Source: a virus. Taken from it: a stretch of 64,000 bases of DNA. Positions 4,405-56,084 of this stretch are shown one piece after another (the stretch's first letter is position 1; each line of letters starts with the position of its first letter). The stretch spans positions 1 to 64,000 of the IMG/VR virus record IMGVR_UViG_3300028030_000010. One strand, written 5' to 3'. Made by a program: the position numbers and the translations under genes. The notes under the pieces are model-generated. The model worked only from the letters and a program-made list of their open reading frames with translations, made no database searches and was not told where the DNA came from.

Positions 4405-4928
4405 TGTCTAATATAAATATTATTTTTCCAAAGGAGAATGTTTTTTCTCCTGTTAACAATGTTGTTGTTTCTCAAAATGTTAACACTGATACAATTTATC
4501 TTCAGGTTGGAGAAAATATTATTACTCTTCAAACTAAAAAAGCAGATTATTTTATACCCGGTTTAGAGTATGCAGACATAAATGATTGTACAGATTTGGT
4601 AAGAAGCAGAAATATTGTAGATATTATATTGTTTGTAAACAAATTTGCTCCAAAAGGGATTATAGATAAGGGGAGTGGTCCTTTCAAATTTTCATATTCT
4701 AAAAAAGAATTGTTTGGGTTTGTCTATTCGTCTGAGTTGTTGGAAATAAACATCAAAATTTCAGGGGATTGTTTATTGATTTTGAATAATAAACTATTCT
4801 ATGAAAACGCTAAAGTTAGCATTCCAAAAAATATTTTCTTACCTATCAGAATGATATTTTGTAACGGAACAATTGAATTTGGTGTTAATCAGAATATTTT
4901 TTACCTTTTAAAGGAGAAAGATGAATAA
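4404..4928 (+). CDS. Unknown beta-rich protein, 174 aa
   Basis: The ATG overlaps the previous stop by one base (TAATG), which indicates translational coupling. The sequence alternates hydrophobic and polar residues as in beta-sandwich proteins (NVVVSQNVNTDTIYLQVGEN), with no membrane segment or catalytic motif. It overlaps the next gene by 8 bases. It is probably a small structural protein encoded just upstream of the packaging and capsid genes, but the family is not recognised. Confidence 0.65.
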   Translation: MSNINIIFPKENVFSPVNNVVVSQNVNTDTIYLQVGENIITLQTKKADYFIPGLEYADINDCTDLVRSRNIVDIILFVNKFAPKGIIDKGSGPFKFSYSKKELFGFVYSSELLEINIKISGDCLLILNNKLFYENAKVSIPKNIFLPIRMIFCNGTIEFGVNQNIFYLLKEKDE

Positions 4929-5667
4929 AGCGTCTAAAGAAATACTGCATTTTGCACATCAAGTAGATGATTTAAAAAATTATATTATGAGTAGAAAACT
5001 TGATGAAGAAACATATAAGATGGTGTTTTCAAATGAAAAAATTCAGGCTTTAATTTTGTATTATGTTTTTTTAAATTTAGCCAGAGAAGATGCTTTTAAA
5101 ATGGAGATAGAAACCATTGATAATTTGATTTCTCCATATTCTGAATATAATGCAGAAAGACTTAAAGCTATGACTTCAATTCTAAAAACTGAACAAGTTT
5201 TTACAAATCCTATAGCTTTTAACGCAATGATTGAATGTTTTAATGGTCATGAAATTACAGTTGGAACATTAGAACCTTACCCAGCATATGAAATAGCTTG
5301 GACTTGCGCTAATGTGTTGGGAATATGGGGAAGCGAAACTTTTGCGTTCAAAGGAAATGCTTTAAGGTATATCAGAGCGTGTCTTGATTGGGAATCTTGG
5401 GAATTGCCTCCAGTGTTTTTATCTTTTCCAGTTATATTAGACATGTATGAAACTAAAAAATTAGAAATGTATGCATCGATTATTAAATATATGCAAAATC
5501 TAACATTAAAAGAAATATCTGAATTAGCAAATGACAAAAATGCTATAAAAACTTTTGAAAAAACTCCTTTTTTACTAAATTATATGGTAAAATGTTCAAT
5601 GGAAAGCCTTGCCTTGGTGAGGCTTATCAATGAAACAAACCAACAATTAAAAACAATTTTTGAATGA
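4921..5667 (+). CDS. Unknown helical protein, 248 aa
   Basis: The start is preceded by AAAGGAGAAAG. The protein looks all-helical, with a Trp-rich middle (YEIAWTCANVLGIWG, DWESWELPP). No signal peptide or known motif is seen. The gene sits in a chain of overlapping genes leading to the terminase, so an assembly or head-morphogenesis role is possible but unproven. Confidence 0.65.
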   Translation: MNKASKEILHFAHQVDDLKNYIMSRKLDEETYKMVFSNEKIQALILYYVFLNLAREDAFKMEIETIDNLISPYSEYNAERLKAMTSILKTEQVFTNPIAFNAMIECFNGHEITVGTLEPYPAYEIAWTCANVLGIWGSETFAFKGNALRYIRACLDWESWELPPVFLSFPVILDMYETKKLEMYASIIKYMQNLTLKEISELANDKNAIKTFEKTPFLLNYMVKCSMESLALVRLINETNQQLKTIFE

Positions 5668-17768: not shown

Positions 17769-18410
17769 TTACTCATAAGAATTTATAGCTTCTGCGTATT
17801 GAGATATATGGTTGTCTATTTCTTTCTTGATAGAATAAAATTTTGTTTGTTTAAAACCATATTTTTTAAACAGTTGCTCTTTTGATAGTTGTTTTAAATA
17901 CATGTCTTTAGCTATATTTCTTTTTGTAGGGTCTGGTATGCTATCTATAATTTCTTTAGGTGTAATTGAAATATTTTTTGCTTGAAGATATTCATCTGTT
18001 TCAAATTGAGCTTTTGCAACTCCTCCATATAATTGCAATAAATTTTTAGCTTTATTTTCTGTAATATTCATTTTTTTTGCTAGCCAGGTAGGATTAGGTA
18101 ATCCACCATATGTGTCTTTATAGTCATCTATAATTTTTTTAGCTTTATACATTAAAAGTTGTTGATTTTCTGGCACATAAACTGGTTGATTTTTGTAAAA
18201 TTCTCTACTCAATTGTTGCAGTTGCGAACTTAAGTATGTTTTAAGATTACCGTAACCAGGATTCCAGTTTCTTAAAGCTTTTCTAATTATTGCCTCAGCT
18301 TTTGCTCTTAACACATATTCGTTTTGATTTTGTTTAAATTTATTTACAAAATATTCTAATTGTTCGTTAGCAATTTTATTTTTTTCAGGGTCTGTAGTAA
18401 ACTCAATCAT
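17769..18410 (-). CDS. Sigma-factor-like protein (divergent)
   Basis: I place the start at the ATG ending at 18410, which has AAAGGA upstream and begins MIEFTTDPEK; an upstream in-frame ATG lacks such a site. Residues about 40-90 (IIRKALRNWNPGYGNLKTYLSSQLQQLSREF, then PVYVPEN) resemble sigma region 2 to 3.0, where a conserved FDP..G..F.TYA segment and VRxP occur. LPNPTWLAKKMNITENKAKNLL resembles the region 3 helix-turn-helix. The end (LSKEQLFKKYGFKQTKFYSIKKEIDNHI) looks like a region 4 helix-turn-helix. Region 2.1-2.2 is short and atypical. It may direct the phage or host RNA polymerase to the uniform phage promoters. Another HTH structural protein is the alternative. Confidence 0.55.
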   Translation of the reverse strand: MIEFTTDPEKNKIANEQLEYFVNKFKQNQNEYVLRAKAEAIIRKALRNWNPGYGNLKTYLSSQLQQLSREFYKNQPVYVPENQQLLMYKAKKIIDDYKDTYGGLPNPTWLAKKMNITENKAKNLLQLYGGVAKAQFETDEYLQAKNISITPKEIIDSIPDPTKRNIAKDMYLKQLSKEQLFKKYGFKQTKFYSIKKEIDNHISQYAEAINSYE

Positions 18411-48531: not shown

Positions 48532-49551
48532 TCACTTAATTTTGTTAGCTTTAACTTTTAATTCAAAAATTGTACCTTGATTGTTTGTTTTTATAAGCCT
48601 TATATTCCCTCCAGAAGTTTTTAAGATAGATAAATTAATATATAAACCATTTCCTCTAATATCAAGCACCTTTGTTTTTGTGGAAATGTTAGGAATGAAA
48701 ATTTTCGGTATAAACTCTTTCGGAATACCTGTTCCATTATCAGAAATAAACATATACACATATGGGTCGCTATATCTAATAAATTTAGCTTCTATCAAGG
48801 TTGAATTGGCTTCTAAAGAATTTTTTATATGATTAATTAATATGTTTAAAAAGTCAGCGTTCGATATGCAATTTTTACAGTCTAAGTTGTATTCTTTAAA
48901 CTTAACATCTATGTTCCATTTAAAATCTTTATGGGAAATTGTCATTATTTTAAACGCAGTCTCTATAACATCATAGAGTGTTTTGTTGCCATTTGAATAC
49001 TTAATCGATTTAAAACCTTTCATTTTGTTTAAAATATTGCTTATTTGTTCTATTGATGATTCCACATAAGTAAAATCTTCTCTAATATCATATAATCTTC
49101 TTAAACATGGGTTTTTATCAGGATCTGGACATTCTACTCGTCTCTGTATATCTTTTATCATTAAATCTATAAAATTCATAATTTTATACATTTTGAAAGT
49201 AATAACTTCTAAGGGAGTGCTTAGTTCGTGAGAAATGTTTTCTGTTATATTCATCAATGATTTATTTGCAGAAATGGAACTAAGATTTAAAACATTTAAT
49301 AAATATTTTTTTCTATAATTAATATAATCGATTAACAAATTACTCACAAAAACAATTAGAAAAACAATTACTACTATGTAAAAATATGAATTGGAAGCCG
49401 ACTTCCAGTCATAATGCATAAAAAAATCTAATTTTAAATGTTTGTTTTGTTGTAAAATATCATTAGATACAAGAATTAAAAATACAATTGCAGAAAAAAA
49501 CACTGAAACAAATAATTTTAAAATAGCATCTTTAATTATTTCTTTAATCAT
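48532..49551 (-). CDS. Membrane sensor histidine kinase
   Basis: 339 residues, a complete kinase. Two transmembrane helices (about 12-29 and 56-75) flank a short outside loop of about 26 residues, so sensing is likely within the membrane or at its surface. H-box NISHELSTPLEVI with phospho-accepting His108, N-box HIKNSLEAN (241-249), G1 DNGTGIP (271-277) and G2 RGNGLYI (299-305) are all intact, so it should autophosphorylate. Its start overlaps the end of the response regulator gene by 4 bases. It is last in the operon that begins with the holin, which points to control of lysis or sensing of host state. A cargo role unrelated to lysis is possible. Confidence 0.9.
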   Translation of the reverse strand: MIKEIIKDAILKLFVSVFFSAIVFLILVSNDILQQNKHLKLDFFMHYDWKSASNSYFYIVVIVFLIVFVSNLLIDYINYRKKYLLNVLNLSSISANKSLMNITENISHELSTPLEVITFKMYKIMNFIDLMIKDIQRRVECPDPDKNPCLRRLYDIREDFTYVESSIEQISNILNKMKGFKSIKYSNGNKTLYDVIETAFKIMTISHKDFKWNIDVKFKEYNLDCKNCISNADFLNILINHIKNSLEANSTLIEAKFIRYSDPYVYMFISDNGTGIPKEFIPKIFIPNISTKTKVLDIRGNGLYINLSILKTSGGNIRLIKTNNQGTIFELKVKANKIK

Positions 49552-50264
49552 TGCTCTTCTTTCTTATTGCTTAAAATATTAGAAATAATTTCTATTAACT
49601 GAGAAGGCGGATATTGATTTTTAAAAATTGTATACTTAAAAATATCCTCTCCTGTTATTTCTTTAAAAGATTCAATTATTTTTTTTGAACTATAAACATA
49701 AGGATTTAAGTTGTTTCCTGTGTAGAAGAAAAATTTTAAGTCAGGGTTATGTTTGTATATTTCCTTAAACACCATAATGCCTTCATATTTAACATTTCCT
49801 TTTTCTGGATGAAACATTACTCCGCCATAAGTTATATCTATAACAGCATAATCTATCTTTATTTTTCCAAAGCGTTTTTCTAAAATTTTAAAAATAAATC
49901 CCGCATAACTAGAATATATTTTTAACACATTTATTTTGTTTTCTAACCCATGAATTTCAATTATATCTTCAATAAGAGAAATTAAGCCTATATTATCATC
50001 TATAATAAGTAAAATTGGTTTATCATTTTTAAGCATTTTTTCATACTCTGCTATTATTTTATCTACTTCCTTTTTTATAGAATCTGGAAGTTGTCTAATG
50101 ATGTCATCTTCTGACATTTTTTCAAAAATTTTTTCACAAGAAGCAATTTCTTTTTTGGAAATATTTTTTATATCCTCATCGTAAGTCGAACGACAAATTT
50201 GTTGCAAAGAACTCCACTTGAGTAGTTTTTTTAAAAAGTTTCTTATTTTTTCTAAAACATCCAT
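49548..50264 (-). CDS. Response regulator without DNA-binding domain
   Basis: 238 residues. The first 80 are charged and helical with no recognised domain. The REC domain starts near 84: ILLIIDDN (acidic pair D89, D90), phospho-acceptor D143 in YAVIDITYGG, T182 in FFYTGNN, K215 in FKNQYPP. All key residues are present. An insert of about 14 residues follows the phospho-acceptor. There is no C-terminal output domain, so signalling would act through protein contact, perhaps via the N-terminal helices. Coupled to the kinase gene, 11 bases after the membrane protein gene. Confidence 0.85.
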   Translation of the reverse strand: MDVLEKIRNFLKKLLKWSSLQQICRSTYDEDIKNISKKEIASCEKIFEKMSEDDIIRQLPDSIKKEVDKIIAEYEKMLKNDKPILLIIDDNIGLISLIEDIIEIHGLENKINVLKIYSSYAGFIFKILEKRFGKIKIDYAVIDITYGGVMFHPEKGNVKYEGIMVFKEIYKHNPDLKFFFYTGNNLNPYVYSSKKIIESFKEITGEDIFKYTIFKNQYPPSQLIEIISNILSNKKEEQ

Positions 50265-50275
50265 TTCAATTCCTT

Positions 50276-50740
50276 TTATTTTAATATTAATCCTAATTTA
50301 GGTAAGATATTTTCAAAAAAATCTTTACATTGATCGGGAAATATTAGATATAGCACAAAAATGCCAAATACAATCCCTAAAGGAATAACTAATTTACTGA
50401 GAATTAATTGTTTTACTGTATTTAAGGCGCTTTTTATTCTTGTTGAAGTAGATATTTTTTTATTATTTACTTCTTCTATCTTATCTAAAGTAGCTATCTT
50501 ATAATGCAGCCACAAATCTATTGCTTCATGAAGTACATTTTTGATGTTCTTATTATCTCTCATCATATAATCATGCATAATAACAACAAATTCTACTAAT
50601 TCTTTCTCTTCTGGATATTTGCTAGTAATATCAACAATTTTTTTATACATTTCACTTAAATCAGGATCTGAATTTTGTAATTCTTTTTTTAAATCATTAA
50701 CCAGTTTTTCAAGTCTATCTCTCATTTCTTTACAAGTCAT
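50276..50740 (-). CDS. Membrane-anchored protein between holin and signalling genes
   Basis: 154 residues. Charged helical N-terminal part (residues 1-105), one transmembrane helix near 115-135 (KLVIPLGIVFGIFVLYLIF) and a short tail. No signal peptide or lipobox, so it is not an obvious spanin. GGATAAC precedes the start, 13 bases after the holin stop. It may link the response regulator to the membrane or to the holin, which is inference from operon position. Confidence 0.65.
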   Translation of the reverse strand: MTCKEMRDRLEKLVNDLKKELQNSDPDLSEMYKKIVDITSKYPEEKELVEFVVIMHDYMMRDNKNIKNVLHEAIDLWLHYKIATLDKIEEVNNKKISTSTRIKSALNTVKQLILSKLVIPLGIVFGIFVLYLIFPDQCKDFFENILPKLGLILK

Positions 50741-50753
50741 TTGTTATCCTTTA

Positions 50754-51164
50754 CTAAGAAGATTTACCCTTCAATTCTTTTGCTATTTTCTCTGCACTTC
50801 TTCCTACCACATAACCACCTATACCTATTTTAAGCAAATCCCACATTTGATCTGTTAACTCTAATGTAGGCACATGTAAACCAAATGCCTGAGCATATGG
50901 AACTATTATATAATTATTAGCAATGATAGTTACAAAAGTAAGCATTGTAATTGGTCTCCATGTAGAAGTTAGCCAATGTTCACTTTTAGCTTCAGCTTCT
51001 ACAATTTTTGCCTGCATTTGAAAAGTAGTTTTTTCTAATTCGCTTATTTTAGATAATAATTCTAACTTTTTATTGGGGTCATCGATAGCTTTTCCTGTAA
51101 TAGCTTCTCTTATGTCTTTAAATAAATTACCTACATCACTTAAATTAAAATCAACCAATCCCAT
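50754..51164 (-). CDS. Holin (three-TM family)
   Basis: 136 residues. The middle WLTSTWRPITMLTFVTIIANNYIIVPY and the end MWDLLKIGIGGYVVGRSAEKIAKEL match the three-transmembrane holins first known from gene-transfer agents, where WRP and GGYVxGRSxEK are characteristic. An N-terminal coiled coil precedes. It should form the pore that releases the endolysin, encoded divergently at 51215. First gene of an operon containing a two-component system. Confidence 0.85.
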   Translation of the reverse strand: MGLVDFNLSDVGNLFKDIREAITGKAIDDPNKKLELLSKISELEKTTFQMQAKIVEAEAKSEHWLTSTWRPITMLTFVTIIANNYIIVPYAQAFGLHVPTLELTDQMWDLLKIGIGGYVVGRSAEKIAKELKGKSS

Positions 51165-51181
51165 TTATTGTTCCTTTTTGG

Positions 51182-51198
51182 TAAGATTATATCAAAAA
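51182..51198 (-). promoter_or_regulatory. Extended -10 promoter for the lysis-signalling operon
   Basis: On minus this reads TTTTTGATATAATCTTA, with TATAAT at 51186-51191, 21 bases before the holin start. The same DNA lies in the leader of the divergent endolysin gene. Confidence 0.7.
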
Positions 51199-51214
51199 AA
51201 CAAAAGGACAAACA

Positions 51215-51784
51215 ATGAATGAAAAATTTTTAAATGCGTATAAAAACTTAATTGGTGCTGAAGGCGGTTATGTGGATAGACCTGAAGATGCAGGAGGAGA
51301 AACTTATAAAGGTATATCTAGAAAGTTTCATCCTGATTGGGAAGGCTGGACAATTATAGATAAATACAAAGATAAACCAGATTTTAAAAGCAAAATAAAA
51401 AAAGATAAAGAATTGGAAAAACTGGTGCAAAAATTTTATTATGAAAATTACTGGGAAAAATTTAATGGCGACAAACTTCCTTATTTAATCGCTGAAGAAC
51501 TGCTAGAACAAAGCGTAGTTTTAGGGACATGGAAAACAGCTGGAAAAAATCTTCAGAAAGCTCTTAACTTATTAAATTTAAACAATAAATTATTCTCAGA
51601 TCTAATTGAAGATGGAATTGTAGGGCCTAAAACATTAGCAGCAGTAAATAAAGTAAATCAAAGAAGATTGTTGACTGTATTAAATGGATTAGAATTTTGT
51701 AGGTTTAAAGAAAGCATGGAAAAAAGACCTATAAATGAAATATTTAGGGGATGGTTTGATAGGGTAAACTTTATTCTAAAATAA
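51215..51784 (+). CDS. Endolysin, GH108-type muramidase
   Basis: 189 residues. N-terminal GAEGGYVDRPEDAGGETYKGIS is the signature of glycoside hydrolase family 108, with the catalytic Glu in EGGY and the conserved D.GG.T..GI. The C-terminal part (GIVGPKTLAAVNKVN) is the peptidoglycan-binding end of the family. It cuts the glycan chain of the cell wall at lysis. It has no signal peptide, so release depends on the holin encoded divergently. Its 3' end overlaps the convergent polymerase gene by 14 bases. Confidence 0.9.
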   Translation: MNEKFLNAYKNLIGAEGGYVDRPEDAGGETYKGISRKFHPDWEGWTIIDKYKDKPDFKSKIKKDKELEKLVQKFYYENYWEKFNGDKLPYLIAEELLEQSVVLGTWKTAGKNLQKALNLLNLNNKLFSDLIEDGIVGPKTLAAVNKVNQRRLLTVLNGLEFCRFKESMEKRPINEIFRGWFDRVNFILK

Positions 51785-54700
51785 CAGGGTCGTTATAATT
51801 TAACTTCCCTTCTCTTATTAGTTTTTTTATTTCAGCTATACTGTGAACTTTTATAGGTTTTTTCTTTGATGGAATAGAAGCTTTATACGCCCCTATAACA
51901 GCATCCTGATCTGTTATCATTAGCAAGTCTTTATGAGTAAGCGTTCCTTGATCAGTGAACAATTGCTTAGAAGCAAGCATTTTTTCTTTTACATCTTTTA
52001 TACCTTCAGGAGTTACTGGTACATGCACAGCAATTTGGTCACCATCATAGTCAGCTGCCAAAGCCCTTTCTACCATTGGAGGTAATGATATAGAGTGACC
52101 AGGAACAAATTTTGGATATGCACCAATAAGGTTATGTTTCCATAAAGATGGAGCCCTGTTGTAGACTACAGGTATTTCTTTACCTAATCTGTGTAAAAGC
52201 TTGATTACTTTTTCATCCTTATTTTTGATCATTTCTTTTATTTGCAATTGAGTGTATCCCATTTTAGCCATTTCTCTACTAATGTGAGGCTCATACATTT
52301 TAAGCCCCATTTCTTCTGGTAACTCTATTTCATCTAATTTTAAATCCCCTCTTGAGGGTGTAATTACAGCCCTTCCTGACATAAATTGATTTTTTCTAAG
52401 CAACTGTTCTTGAACAAATGAGTCTTTCGGTCTATTTCCTCCTAAAACATCTAGTATCCCTTTTACTTGCTTATTTGCAATTGCTGGATTGTTACTAGGA
52501 TACAATCCATACATAGCGCCTATAGCATGTTGCAGAGAAAGTTTTAGATCATTTATTGTTTTTTTAGATAATTTGTTTTGTTTTGCTTCTTTTAAAGTGT
52601 TGTTTAAATTAATTATTTCTTGATAATGTAGATTTAGGTCTGAAACTCCATATTTACCGGTATGGTCTTTGATAATTGGCCTATAAACAGGCGGAATTAC
52701 TGGAACTGTTTTTAATACAGCTACATCTTTTAGAGATAAGTTGTTGTTTTTTAGTTTTTCTAAAAACTTAATGATTTTTAAATTTCTATCTTTTAGTTGC
52801 TCATTTGATGTTTTTTTATTTTCATCTTTCAGTTTTTTTATTTCTTTATTTATATCTATAGCAGATAATTTCTTAATTATACTATCTACACCATCTTCAA
52901 CCATCATTTCTTTTAATTTTTTTTCAGGGATACCTAACAAGAAAGCAATTTCATATGAATAAATTGGGTTAATTAATGGTTCGTTTAATTTTATATGAGC
53001 ATACCTATTACCTAATTCTCCGAAAATAGAAGGATCAAAAAGCCCTCCTTTTCTAGGAGAACCATCAGTTGCGTTTATAGTTTCTGCACTTTTAACTTCT
53101 TTAGGCCCCTTTTTGATAATATCCTTATCTGTTGCGGGAACCAGATTGAAGCTATTTGGGTCATCTTCAACATTTACATTTAGTTGACTTAATAGAGCTT
53201 TAAATTTTTCATAGGCAAAATTTTCAGCCGGTTTAGGTAGTGGTTGTCCTTTTCTAAAGGCTTCAAACCAAGCATCATTTTTTTGGCCTTTTATTTTTCT
53301 AGCCTCTCTTAGTAAATCTTTCGCATTATGTGCTAATAACGCATTTATTTCCATATTTGAAAAAGATGAAGCCGAAGTTTTGCCACCTTTTGCTGGTTGT
53401 TCATTAATATTAACCCTATCAGTAGCAGTAGCACTCATTCCAGATTCAGAATCTTTAAAAAGCTTATAAGTGTATGGTTCTCCTACAAAAACTTTTTGAG
53501 GAAAAGGTTTGCCTGTTTCTGGATTGATTAGCGTTTCATATTGTTCAACCCCATGTTTCTTAGCTTCTTCCTCTGCAAATTTTAAATTATCAGTTAAAGA
53601 ATATTGATCTAGCACATAAGATTTGTCAGTTTTTTTTCCTACTTTACCTAGAGTTGCTTCTATTAATTGCCCAGGATTGATCCTTGAAATAACCCCAGCA
53701 GATGTAACTATAATATGTACTGGTTCACCTTTCTCATTTTTTGGCATTTTATCATCAGGTAAAATCAAAGAAATAGAACCTTTGTTACCATATCTCCCTG
53801 ATAACTTGTCACCTATTTGGGCCTTAGATTTTGTTTTTACAAAAACCCTAATATTGTTCCCTGATTTGTTTACAGACACCACTTTACCATCATGATGATG
53901 AGTCCATGTTTCTAATTTCAATTTGTATGGTTTAAATAAAGTTTTTTCTAAAGAAGTTATAGGTTTATCTTTATTTACGACTAATTTAATCACTAAAGGT
54001 TCATTAAATTTAACGGTTGCGCCTTTTTTTATAACTCCGTGCTCATCATACTTTGATAAATCATATTTAGATAAAGTAAGAGGAAATAAAGCCTTAGCCT
54101 TTTTTAAATCTAATACATCATCTCTATCTATATGAATTTCTTCTTTATACATATGAAGAGAAGTTAAGTTTTTGGCTGCAGTTTCAGATACAATGATTGC
54201 ATCATTTCTGTTGCCAGGCATCGACATCCAAGCTGTTCTTAAATGCACTCCATTTGCAAAATAACCATCTTTAGCATAGTTACTTTCTGCTATCACTTCT
54301 CCTTTTTTTACTCTATCTCCTACCTTAACCTTAGGCTCCATAGATATGTATGTTTTTCTAGCTAATGGAAGGTCTTTTATGTATTTAATTTTATGACCAT
54401 CTATTTGAATGTAATCATCAGTTATTTTTTCAACTTTACCAGAAACAGGACTTTTCACAACTTGGTTTGTTTTTTCTGCTATTTTTTTATAAAAATCTTC
54501 ATTTTTATCTTTTGTTCTAACAATTGGAGCTTCTCTATGTTCTAGCGATAAAGCTTGTTGAGCGTGCTTTTGAGCCATTGTAGCTCTCATGCCATCCATT
54601 GAATTAATAAGAGGCAATGTTTTTGTTGATGAAGTGTGTATATCGCTTGAGCTTTCTATCGCATAATCTACATCTTTTAGAGACTTTACTGTATATTCTT

Positions 54701-56084
54701 TTTCTCCATCTCTAATTGGAATTCCTTCTTTTTTAGCTCTCTCTTTTGATGCAGGATAAGCTACTTTTTTGTTCCACAATTCTTTTATTGTTTTTATTTC
54801 TTTTTTTCCTGTTTTTACATTTAAAACTTCTATTGCAGGCTCTCCATTTTCATCAACATATGCATTATTTGTTACTGCCAATGTAATCCCTGTCTTTGCT
54901 CCTTCCGGAGACACAACTGGGTCAATAAAACCTAATTGAGAAGAATGAATTGCTTTATCATCTTCTGTTAAAGCTCTATCTGTTTCTATTCCACCTTCTC
55001 CTAAAGGAGTTAACAATTTTGTTGCCATATGTGTTTGAATAGGGTTGTATTCTTCTGGCATTCTGGATATCTTTGAAACAGTTAAAAAACTTTTTAGTGT
55101 ATCAGTTAAATAATTGTGATTAAATACATCATTTAACGAATTAAGTGCTGGATTGTTTAATTTTTGTTTTATTTTAAAAATTTCTTTTACTGAATTTTTT
55201 GCAAAATATTCAGGCATAAGATGTATAGCGTTTAACACTTTTCTATTAGCTAAGTTGTTTTTCTGTTTTAAATCTACTTCTTCTCCTCTGTAAGCTTTCA
55301 ATATTTGCTTAATGTTTGCGAAAATCAATTCGGGAGTTAATTTGCTTGTCTCAACTCCAAAGTTTCTTTTGTTAACATCTGGGTCCAATTCCATATGATC
55401 AAAAATATACTTTATCTGTTCTGTTAATGGCTTTTGTTTTATATCATTTGGCAAAGAGTATGATTTTTTTATAAATTTTTCTAAATCAGTTGGATTTGTT
55501 TTATTTATATTGATTTCATATAGCTTTTTCCCTAATTTTCTTTTAATTTCTTCATCAGAAACACCTAACGCTTTCAATATGCTAACAACAGACACATTAG
55601 AATTTCCTATGTTAAAATAAATTACACCAGTATCTGGGTTAAGTGTTATTTTGAATTGTCTGTTTCCTATTGGATTAACTATTGTAACAATTTCTCCATT
55701 TTTTCTTTCGAACAAATAAGTACCAGGTTTTAATCTTTGCTGATTAGGTATAGCATACGAATTCCCATCTATTATGAAAGTTTCTTTAGGTGAGAATTTA
55801 GGAACTTTAGCTATCAAAATGTTTTTTTTACATTCTATTTTTTTATTATCCTTTTTTCTAATTAAACAAACATCTCCTCTAATTTCATTAAATAAACTTT
55901 TGCCTTTTAAAATAGCATTCTTAACATCTTCTAAGTCCACTTCTTTTTGTATTCCTTTAACATTGGAAACTTCTATTTTGTAAAAGTTCCCTTCTATGGG
56001 AAAGGTTTTTTCAACTTCCTTAACAACATTATTTAATATGTGTTTATCAATTTTTTCTGGAGAATCATCTATTTTGTAAAACAT
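51771..56084 (-). CDS. RNA polymerase beta subunit fused to N-terminal beta'
   Basis: 1437 residues. Residues about 1-970 are a complete bacterial-type beta: the GFIDPVVSPEGAKTGITLAV segment, NSMDGMRATMAQKHAQQAL, PGNRNDAIIVSE near 623, GRYGNKG near 761, and GGKTSASSFSNMEINALLAH near the end of beta. From about 980, LVPATDKDI and GGLFDPSIFG open beta'. The first zinc finger is missing. The catalytic metal motif is AADYDGDQIAVHVP near 1340 (canonical NADFDGDQ). It ends where the other phage chain (25194-26960) begins. TAGGAG precedes the start. No alpha or omega gene is seen. Helicobacter has a natural beta-beta' fusion, but there beta' is complete. Confidence 0.95.
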   Translation of the reverse strand: MFYKIDDSPEKIDKHILNNVVKEVEKTFPIEGNFYKIEVSNVKGIQKEVDLEDVKNAILKGKSLFNEIRGDVCLIRKKDNKKIECKKNILIAKVPKFSPKETFIIDGNSYAIPNQQRLKPGTYLFERKNGEIVTIVNPIGNRQFKITLNPDTGVIYFNIGNSNVSVVSILKALGVSDEEIKRKLGKKLYEININKTNPTDLEKFIKKSYSLPNDIKQKPLTEQIKYIFDHMELDPDVNKRNFGVETSKLTPELIFANIKQILKAYRGEEVDLKQKNNLANRKVLNAIHLMPEYFAKNSVKEIFKIKQKLNNPALNSLNDVFNHNYLTDTLKSFLTVSKISRMPEEYNPIQTHMATKLLTPLGEGGIETDRALTEDDKAIHSSQLGFIDPVVSPEGAKTGITLAVTNNAYVDENGEPAIEVLNVKTGKKEIKTIKELWNKKVAYPASKERAKKEGIPIRDGEKEYTVKSLKDVDYAIESSSDIHTSSTKTLPLINSMDGMRATMAQKHAQQALSLEHREAPIVRTKDKNEDFYKKIAEKTNQVVKSPVSGKVEKITDDYIQIDGHKIKYIKDLPLARKTYISMEPKVKVGDRVKKGEVIAESNYAKDGYFANGVHLRTAWMSMPGNRNDAIIVSETAAKNLTSLHMYKEEIHIDRDDVLDLKKAKALFPLTLSKYDLSKYDEHGVIKKGATVKFNEPLVIKLVVNKDKPITSLEKTLFKPYKLKLETWTHHHDGKVVSVNKSGNNIRVFVKTKSKAQIGDKLSGRYGNKGSISLILPDDKMPKNEKGEPVHIIVTSAGVISRINPGQLIEATLGKVGKKTDKSYVLDQYSLTDNLKFAEEEAKKHGVEQYETLINPETGKPFPQKVFVGEPYTYKLFKDSESGMSATATDRVNINEQPAKGGKTSASSFSNMEINALLAHNAKDLLREARKIKGQKNDAWFEAFRKGQPLPKPAENFAYEKFKALLSQLNVNVEDDPNSFNLVPATDKDIIKKGPKEVKSAETINATDGSPRKGGLFDPSIFGELGNRYAHIKLNEPLINPIYSYEIAFLLGIPEKKLKEMMVEDGVDSIIKKLSAIDINKEIKKLKDENKKTSNEQLKDRNLKIIKFLEKLKNNNLSLKDVAVLKTVPVIPPVYRPIIKDHTGKYGVSDLNLHYQEIINLNNTLKEAKQNKLSKKTINDLKLSLQHAIGAMYGLYPSNNPAIANKQVKGILDVLGGNRPKDSFVQEQLLRKNQFMSGRAVITPSRGDLKLDEIELPEEMGLKMYEPHISREMAKMGYTQLQIKEMIKNKDEKVIKLLHRLGKEIPVVYNRAPSLWKHNLIGAYPKFVPGHSISLPPMVERALAADYDGDQIAVHVPVTPEGIKDVKEKMLASKQLFTDQGTLTHKDLLMITDQDAVIGAYKASIPSKKKPIKVHSIAEIKKLIREGKLNYNDPVILE

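Follow-up and report, generated by a model that had tools for sequence, protein, structure and literature searches.

Phages are usually described as timing lysis by a clock intrinsic to the holin; the classic signal-dependent exception is lysis inhibition in T4, in which RI and RIII act on the holin T. SaeS and GraS, two bacterial histidine kinases, have DNA-binding regulators as partners, and in the two-component defense system Detocs the regulator is fused to a nucleotide-cleaving effector. Both kinases are examples of the intramembrane-sensing type (PMC4388633, PMC10581149). A phage histidine kinase gene in a locus that adjoins the endolysin gene has been described in the Clostridium difficile phage phiCDHM1, namely agrC, which is part of an AgrB-AgrD-AgrC set from the host quorum system and for which no phage regulator was found (PMC3901668). 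Divergent phage receivers (cREC) described in a survey of jumbo phages were never found with histidine kinases and are associated with NAD/ADP-ribose enzymes (PMC7824862). In the open literature (most subscription papers being outside this coverage), we found no phage-encoded kinase module of the type analyzed here, which consists of a protein with one transmembrane segment (TM), a response regulator (RR) and a histidine kinase (HK), hereinafter the trio.

The trio shares with orthodox bacterial two-component systems the HELSTP H-box, the N, G1 and G2 boxes, and a receiver fold with the DD, D, T and K residues, but differs from them in being phage-encoded, in having an RR without a DNA-binding or enzymatic domain, in the constant presence of the one-TM gene, and in the DITxGG motif and insertion of the RR. 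The partner genes of phiCDHM1 agrC are unrelated to those of the trio. By description, T4 lysis inhibition works alike, in that a membrane signal adjusts holin triggering, but T4 employs neither a kinase nor phosphotransfer. A receiver-only regulator is also encoded in the endolysin-holin cluster of the Alteromonas phages PB15 and XX1924 (L013:3113-3490 and L015:2044-2457), within one or two genes of the endolysin and a GTA-type holin and, in PB15, with a one-TM coiled-coil protein upstream; unlike the trio RR, however, this is an ordinary PF00072 receiver of another family, with no phage kinase seen beside it. The 'histidine kinase-like ATPase' encoded beside the holin gene of Vibrio phage 1.122 was rejected as a kinase given that reading of the sequence places the ATPase domain at the N-terminus and shows no phospho-histidine helix.

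Two-component genes in the lysis cluster of an uncultured virus

The window (the entire stretch of 64,000 nucleotides that was analyzed) is part of a 76,440-bp IMG/VR virus record with a GC content of about 30%. The features relevant here are as follows:

48532..49551, minus strand: histidine kinase (HK), 339 aa, two TMs; HATPase_c match and motif boxes
49548..50264, minus strand: receiver-only response regulator (RR), 238 aa, with N-terminal helices; predicted receiver fold
50276..50740, minus strand: one-TM protein, 154 aa, helical N-terminal part and C-terminal TM; no family, constant member of the module
50754..51164, minus strand: GTA-type 3-TM holin; PF11351 and phrog_3427
51165..51214: 50 bp of intergenic DNA separating the holin cluster from the divergent endolysin gene
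51215..51784, plus strand: GH108 endolysin with a peptidoglycan-binding domain; GH108 and PG_binding_3

The genes for the holin, the one-TM protein, the RR and the HK are arranged head to tail and, because the gaps between them are only 13, 11 and -4 bp, co-transcription is plausible; a promoter scan of the 50-bp intergenic region yielded promoter-like matches at chance level. The holin assignment is based on PF11351 (GTA_holin_3TM, E-value 3.5e-12, 47.4 bits against a cut-off of 24.8) and phrog_3427 (holin, 7.2e-29), the protein being a putative pore former. The endolysin matches GH108 (1.5e-18), in addition to PG_binding_3.

The virus encodes its own RNA polymerase, and a single ORF (51771-56084, minus strand, 1437 aa; PF00562, 1.1e-38; PF04997, 9e-19; PF00623, 3.7e-13) combines parts of beta and beta-prime. 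This ORF stops shortly past the catalytic DYDGDQ motif, and the remainder of beta-prime must be encoded at another place. A weak sigma-factor match (17769-18404, minus strand; phrog_351, 1.8e-4) points to a possible partner of the polymerase. Elsewhere, a 2611-aa RNA polymerase ORF (L003:9980-17815) contains an apparent intein (LAGLIDADG-like) just after the catalytic NADYDGD motif. The cultured relatives are distant, being about 30% identical in RNA polymerase and terminase; they are Salmonella phage Arash and Vibrio phages D69, D148 and D181; the whole genomes of Arash and D69 gave no PF02518 or PF00072 match. In another relative, with 68% portal identity (L009:2739-7807), the gene after the RNA polymerase is related to window ORF 4921-5667, so that the lysis block is not located at the RNA polymerase site.

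The HK matches HATPase_c above the curated cut-off (1.1e-8) and HisKA below it; the best NCBIfam match is AtoS-like (8.5e-12). The putative phospho-acceptor H108 (codon 49228-49230) lies within ENISHELSTP and is accompanied by N240/N244 of the N-box, DNGTG (G1), RGNG (G2) and the family motif KYSNGNKTL. Hydropathy places the TMs at residues ~10-28 and 56-74, with a periplasmic loop of about 27 residues. In the closest relative (L002) this outside loop has 31 residues; in their two TMs and very short loop, the two kinases come near the SaeS/GraS type, the definition of which calls for a loop of about 25 residues or less. In the other full-length kinases of the family, which are the majority, the loop is 57-121 residues long and contains a C-x4-C motif. 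The phospho-histidine occurs throughout the family, and most kinases also have a [KR]YSNGNK-like motif and a TENIHHE-like box; conservation extends to the ATP-site boxes, with L126 reading DKGTG and L130 ending before G2.

The RR has no significant family match in sequence libraries, none of the RRs scanned reaches the curated PF00072 cut-off, and an hhalign comparison of the RR family with CheY-like proteins is weak (probability 4%). Nevertheless, the AlphaFold model (mean pLDDT 76) has the (beta-alpha)5 topology of a receiver, with D89/D90 after beta-1, the putative phospho-acceptor D143 (codon 49836-49838) ending beta-3, T182 ending beta-4, and K215 after beta-5. The best match of the model among solved structures is CheY (E-value 3.9e-4, probability 1.00), with other receivers also on top, and among viral structures a response regulator and receiver-bearing kinases rank highest. 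Four of the five key residues (D89, D90, D143 and K215) do not vary among 14 RRs, and the fifth, T182, is replaced by S once; the family further features an insertion behind D143 and an unusual motif, DITxGG. The RR belongs to a receiver family that standard profiles miss. By their parts, the HK and the RR are a two-component system, with phosphotransfer from one to the other predicted. PADLOC defense models matched neither the HK nor the one-TM protein and gave only a weak Cas2a match for the RR (E-value 0.016); identity with Detocs was rejected, no effector domain being detected in the RRs scanned.

For the one-TM protein, with the TM at residues ~117-135, we found no family match, and its structure model is of low confidence, too poor for a structure search.

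The preliminary description of this DNA had listed the same five genes, with the endolysin divergent from the holin cluster, a two-TM kinase with intact H, N, G1 and G2 boxes, and an RR with intact D89/D90, D143, T182 and K215 but without a DNA-binding domain. All five ORFs are present at the positions given there, the boxes are in place, the RR residues are correctly positioned on the predicted fold, and no output domain of any kind was detected in the 14 RRs.

A conserved three-gene unit

The complete gene block of the window, from the endolysin through the holin, one-TM protein and RR to the HK, recurs with unchanged order in a 161-kb viral contig (L002), next to an RNA polymerase that is 71% identical to that of the window. 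The identity is 65% for the endolysin, 69% for the holin, 50% for the one-TM protein, 46% for the RR and 52% for the HK, and every catalytic residue is kept. A more distant pair, in G028, was identified with the RR and HK profiles (E-values 2.1e-7 for the RR and 1.1e-26 for the HK, A1 profile); the gene before it encodes a one-TM protein of equal size. The profile match of that protein is weak (probability 7%) and, accordingly, the most distant homology of the one-TM family rests on position, size and topology.

A search with an alignment of three kinases retrieved 15 loci, giving, with the window, 16 kinases, all from IMG/VR viral contigs. Searches with one or two RR or HK sequences against viral contigs and species genomes found either L002 only or nothing, and the two species-genome scans relied on poor patterns, so that they do not imply absence from bacterial genomes. 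Among 50,697 phage records, searches of the given sensitivity detected no trio. The order one-TM protein, RR, HK is present in 14 of the 16 loci, that is, in the window and at least 13 other uncultured viral contigs, with the one-TM gene always directly upstream of the RR gene and, in L118, two small genes between RR and HK. The two exceptions are L120, where the contig breaks off within the kinase gene, and L126, which has the kinase alone with no RR in the record; each record with an RR contains exactly one. The conserved unit therefore consists of the one-TM protein, the RR and the HK, without the holin. The kinase tree comprises seven lineages with several long branches, the order of which is unsure.

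Comparison of L108 and L128 yields dN/dS values of 0.13 for the one-TM protein, 0.26 for the RR and 0.19 for the HK (dS 0.6-0.8); in the window-L002 comparison, dS is near saturation. With dN/dS well below 1 in three pairs, the trio genes are under purifying selection, which, like the retention of all motifs in a relative at 46-52% identity, shows that the observation is more than chance.

Genomic context and the link to lysis genes

The trio adjoins recognizable lysis genes in three separate lineages, namely the window/L002 lineage, the only one in which it adjoins the holin, and those of L122 and L129. In L122, the neighbors are an Rz-like spanin (phrog_214, 1.6e-5) and a lipoprotein with a weak match to a spanin family; in L129, the neighbor is an M15 endolysin (phrog_894, 1.7e-27). 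In addition, L127 encodes an endolysin two genes upstream of the trio (phrog_465, 4.7e-34), and in L130 the trio diverges from two genes, one for a lipoprotein and one for a TM protein, which resemble a spanin pair, without family support. No recognized lysis genes were found beside the trio in L117, L118, L119 and L121, most of which have, by reading, ClpX-like or DNA polymerase neighbors, in L123, where the neighbor is a secreted Endonuclease_NS, or in L108, L128 and L125, which have head or other genes there. The trio is thus remote from recognizable lysis genes in two clades at least, L117/L118/L119/L121 and L108/L128/L125.

The preliminary description had proposed to look for the same gene order in other phages, and had held that finding the pair unlinked in relatives which keep holin and endolysin would speak against the link. 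The shared order is borne out for the trio and fails for the holin, the linkage of which is confined to the window and L002: in G028, the trio lies at 153-156 kb, about 95 kb from a PF11351 holin at 58 kb. L019 and L020, conversely, carry similar holins with no trio adjacent. The lysis link of the trio is thus recurrent but not obligatory. The interpretation offered in that description, namely lysis timed by a sensed signal with the RR acting on the one-TM protein or the holin, is supported in part: kinase and regulator are intact and the one-TM protein is their constant companion, but the trio is not bound to the holin. When the window lineage, chosen for its linkage, is set aside, lysis adjacency holds for 2 of 6 lineages (p ~0.006-0.046 under a null of 2-6% per lineage that was assumed, not measured), so that an excess over chance is suggestive only.

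A general tie between GTA-type holins and two-component proteins was considered and rejected because only three of 50 records, all from one group, had a receiver above the cut-off. CheY-like receivers are encoded 2-3 kb upstream of the PF11351 holin in L042:3086-3499, L044:3679-4092 and L046:3022-3438; G028 (L044) thus has such a receiver near the holin as well as the trio far away. Directly after the holin, the same contigs encode a secreted non-specific endonuclease, recognized by sequence likeness only (L044:6339-7043, L046:6344-7027, L042:6448-7149), and a secreted DNA/RNA non-specific endonuclease is also found near the trio at L123:7783-8427 (Pfam, 8.4e-22).

In several relatives, the kinase gene is directly followed by genes for a small secreted protein and an outer-membrane barrel (L117:10764-12310, L119:10807-12347, L122:10939-12311, L108:11752-13306, L125:10862-12294 and L126:8558-10047, with a remnant in L128), and two of the barrels match PF11853. 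These proteins possibly form the outer arm of the sensor; they are absent from the window and from the searched stretches of L002. An extra protein between RR and HK (L118:9008-9604), with a TM at each end and a periplasmic part in between, is perhaps a split sensor. In L127:8174-8978, two further receiver-like proteins (PF00072, 2.1e-9 and 8.8e-5) follow the kinase.

Functional prediction

We propose, with a probability of about 0.48, that the trio is a self-contained envelope-sensing relay, with the one-TM protein as the output, which in the window lineage is wired to lysis. The kinase would sense the state of the envelope via its two membrane helices in this lineage and, in most relatives, via a periplasmic domain of about 100 residues; it would then be phosphorylated at H108 and pass the phosphate to D143 of the RR, so that the RR would then make a different contact with the helical portion of the one-TM protein. 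Given that the RR has no output domain and that the one-TM protein is the only other constant neighbor, output by protein contact at the membrane is most likely, and this particular contact is our best guess. The nearest membrane target in this phage is the holin, the triggering of which the one-TM protein may promote or delay, so that lysis would depend on a signal from the envelope. In phages with no lysis genes beside the trio, the relay may serve another envelope process.

Nearly as likely, because in several phages the trio is encoded away from lysis genes, although still a minority view on our part, is the possibility that the relay is a general sensor of the envelope or of superinfection, involved for example in superinfection exclusion or envelope remodeling, and that its place in the lysis cluster is incidental, reflecting for instance shared late expression. 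The varied genomic locations of the trio, its separation from the holin in G028, and the envelope-facing secreted protein and barrel encoded after the kinase in L117, L119, L122, L108, L125 and L126 are in line with this explanation, whereas the immediate adjacency of lysis genes in three separate lineages and the lack of the secreted protein and barrel in the window and the searched stretches of L002 favor the link to lysis.

It is unlikely that the trio rewires host two-component networks, with the HK phosphorylating host regulators or the RR draining host kinases such that host transcription is altered. The catalytic domain of the HK is indeed of the ordinary, AtoS-like type, and CheY-like proteins occur in other phages, but the window RR is far removed from ordinary receivers, and the retention of HK and RR together with the one-TM gene over a large divergence argues for a circuit of the phage itself. 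Highly improbable is the use of the RR as a nucleotide-processing enzyme, as suggested for cREC, rather than as a phosphorylated signaling protein: the DITxGG motif, the insertion after D143 and the distance from ordinary receivers would fit, but every RR is encoded beside a kinase, the phosphorylation switch retains T182 and K215, and no NAD/ADP-ribose enzyme was noticed beside the trio, so that identity with cREC was rejected. Least credible of all is that these genes are functionless passengers, which their rarity in sequence collections might suggest, including the lack of hits among the phage records searched, but which the low dN/dS and the invariant catalytic residues of the 14 RRs disfavor.

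Implications

Given the presence of the trio in no fewer than 13 further contigs, some phages appear to run a membrane signaling circuit of their own. More broadly, and slightly more tentatively than the reading preferred for the window, these trios might represent an undescribed family of non-transcriptional two-component relays by which large phages, once infection has begun, would sense conditions in the envelope or outside and set lysis or the response to superinfection accordingly; in some phages, such relays would include a secreted protein and an outer-membrane barrel that reach the cell surface. The interest of the system lies in the combination of a phage-owned kinase with an RR that lacks a DNA-binding domain, both retained alongside a membrane protein despite great divergence and repeatedly encoded beside holin, spanin or endolysin genes. 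If the prediction is correct, signal-dependent lysis or envelope control by phosphotransfer would become directly testable in phages.
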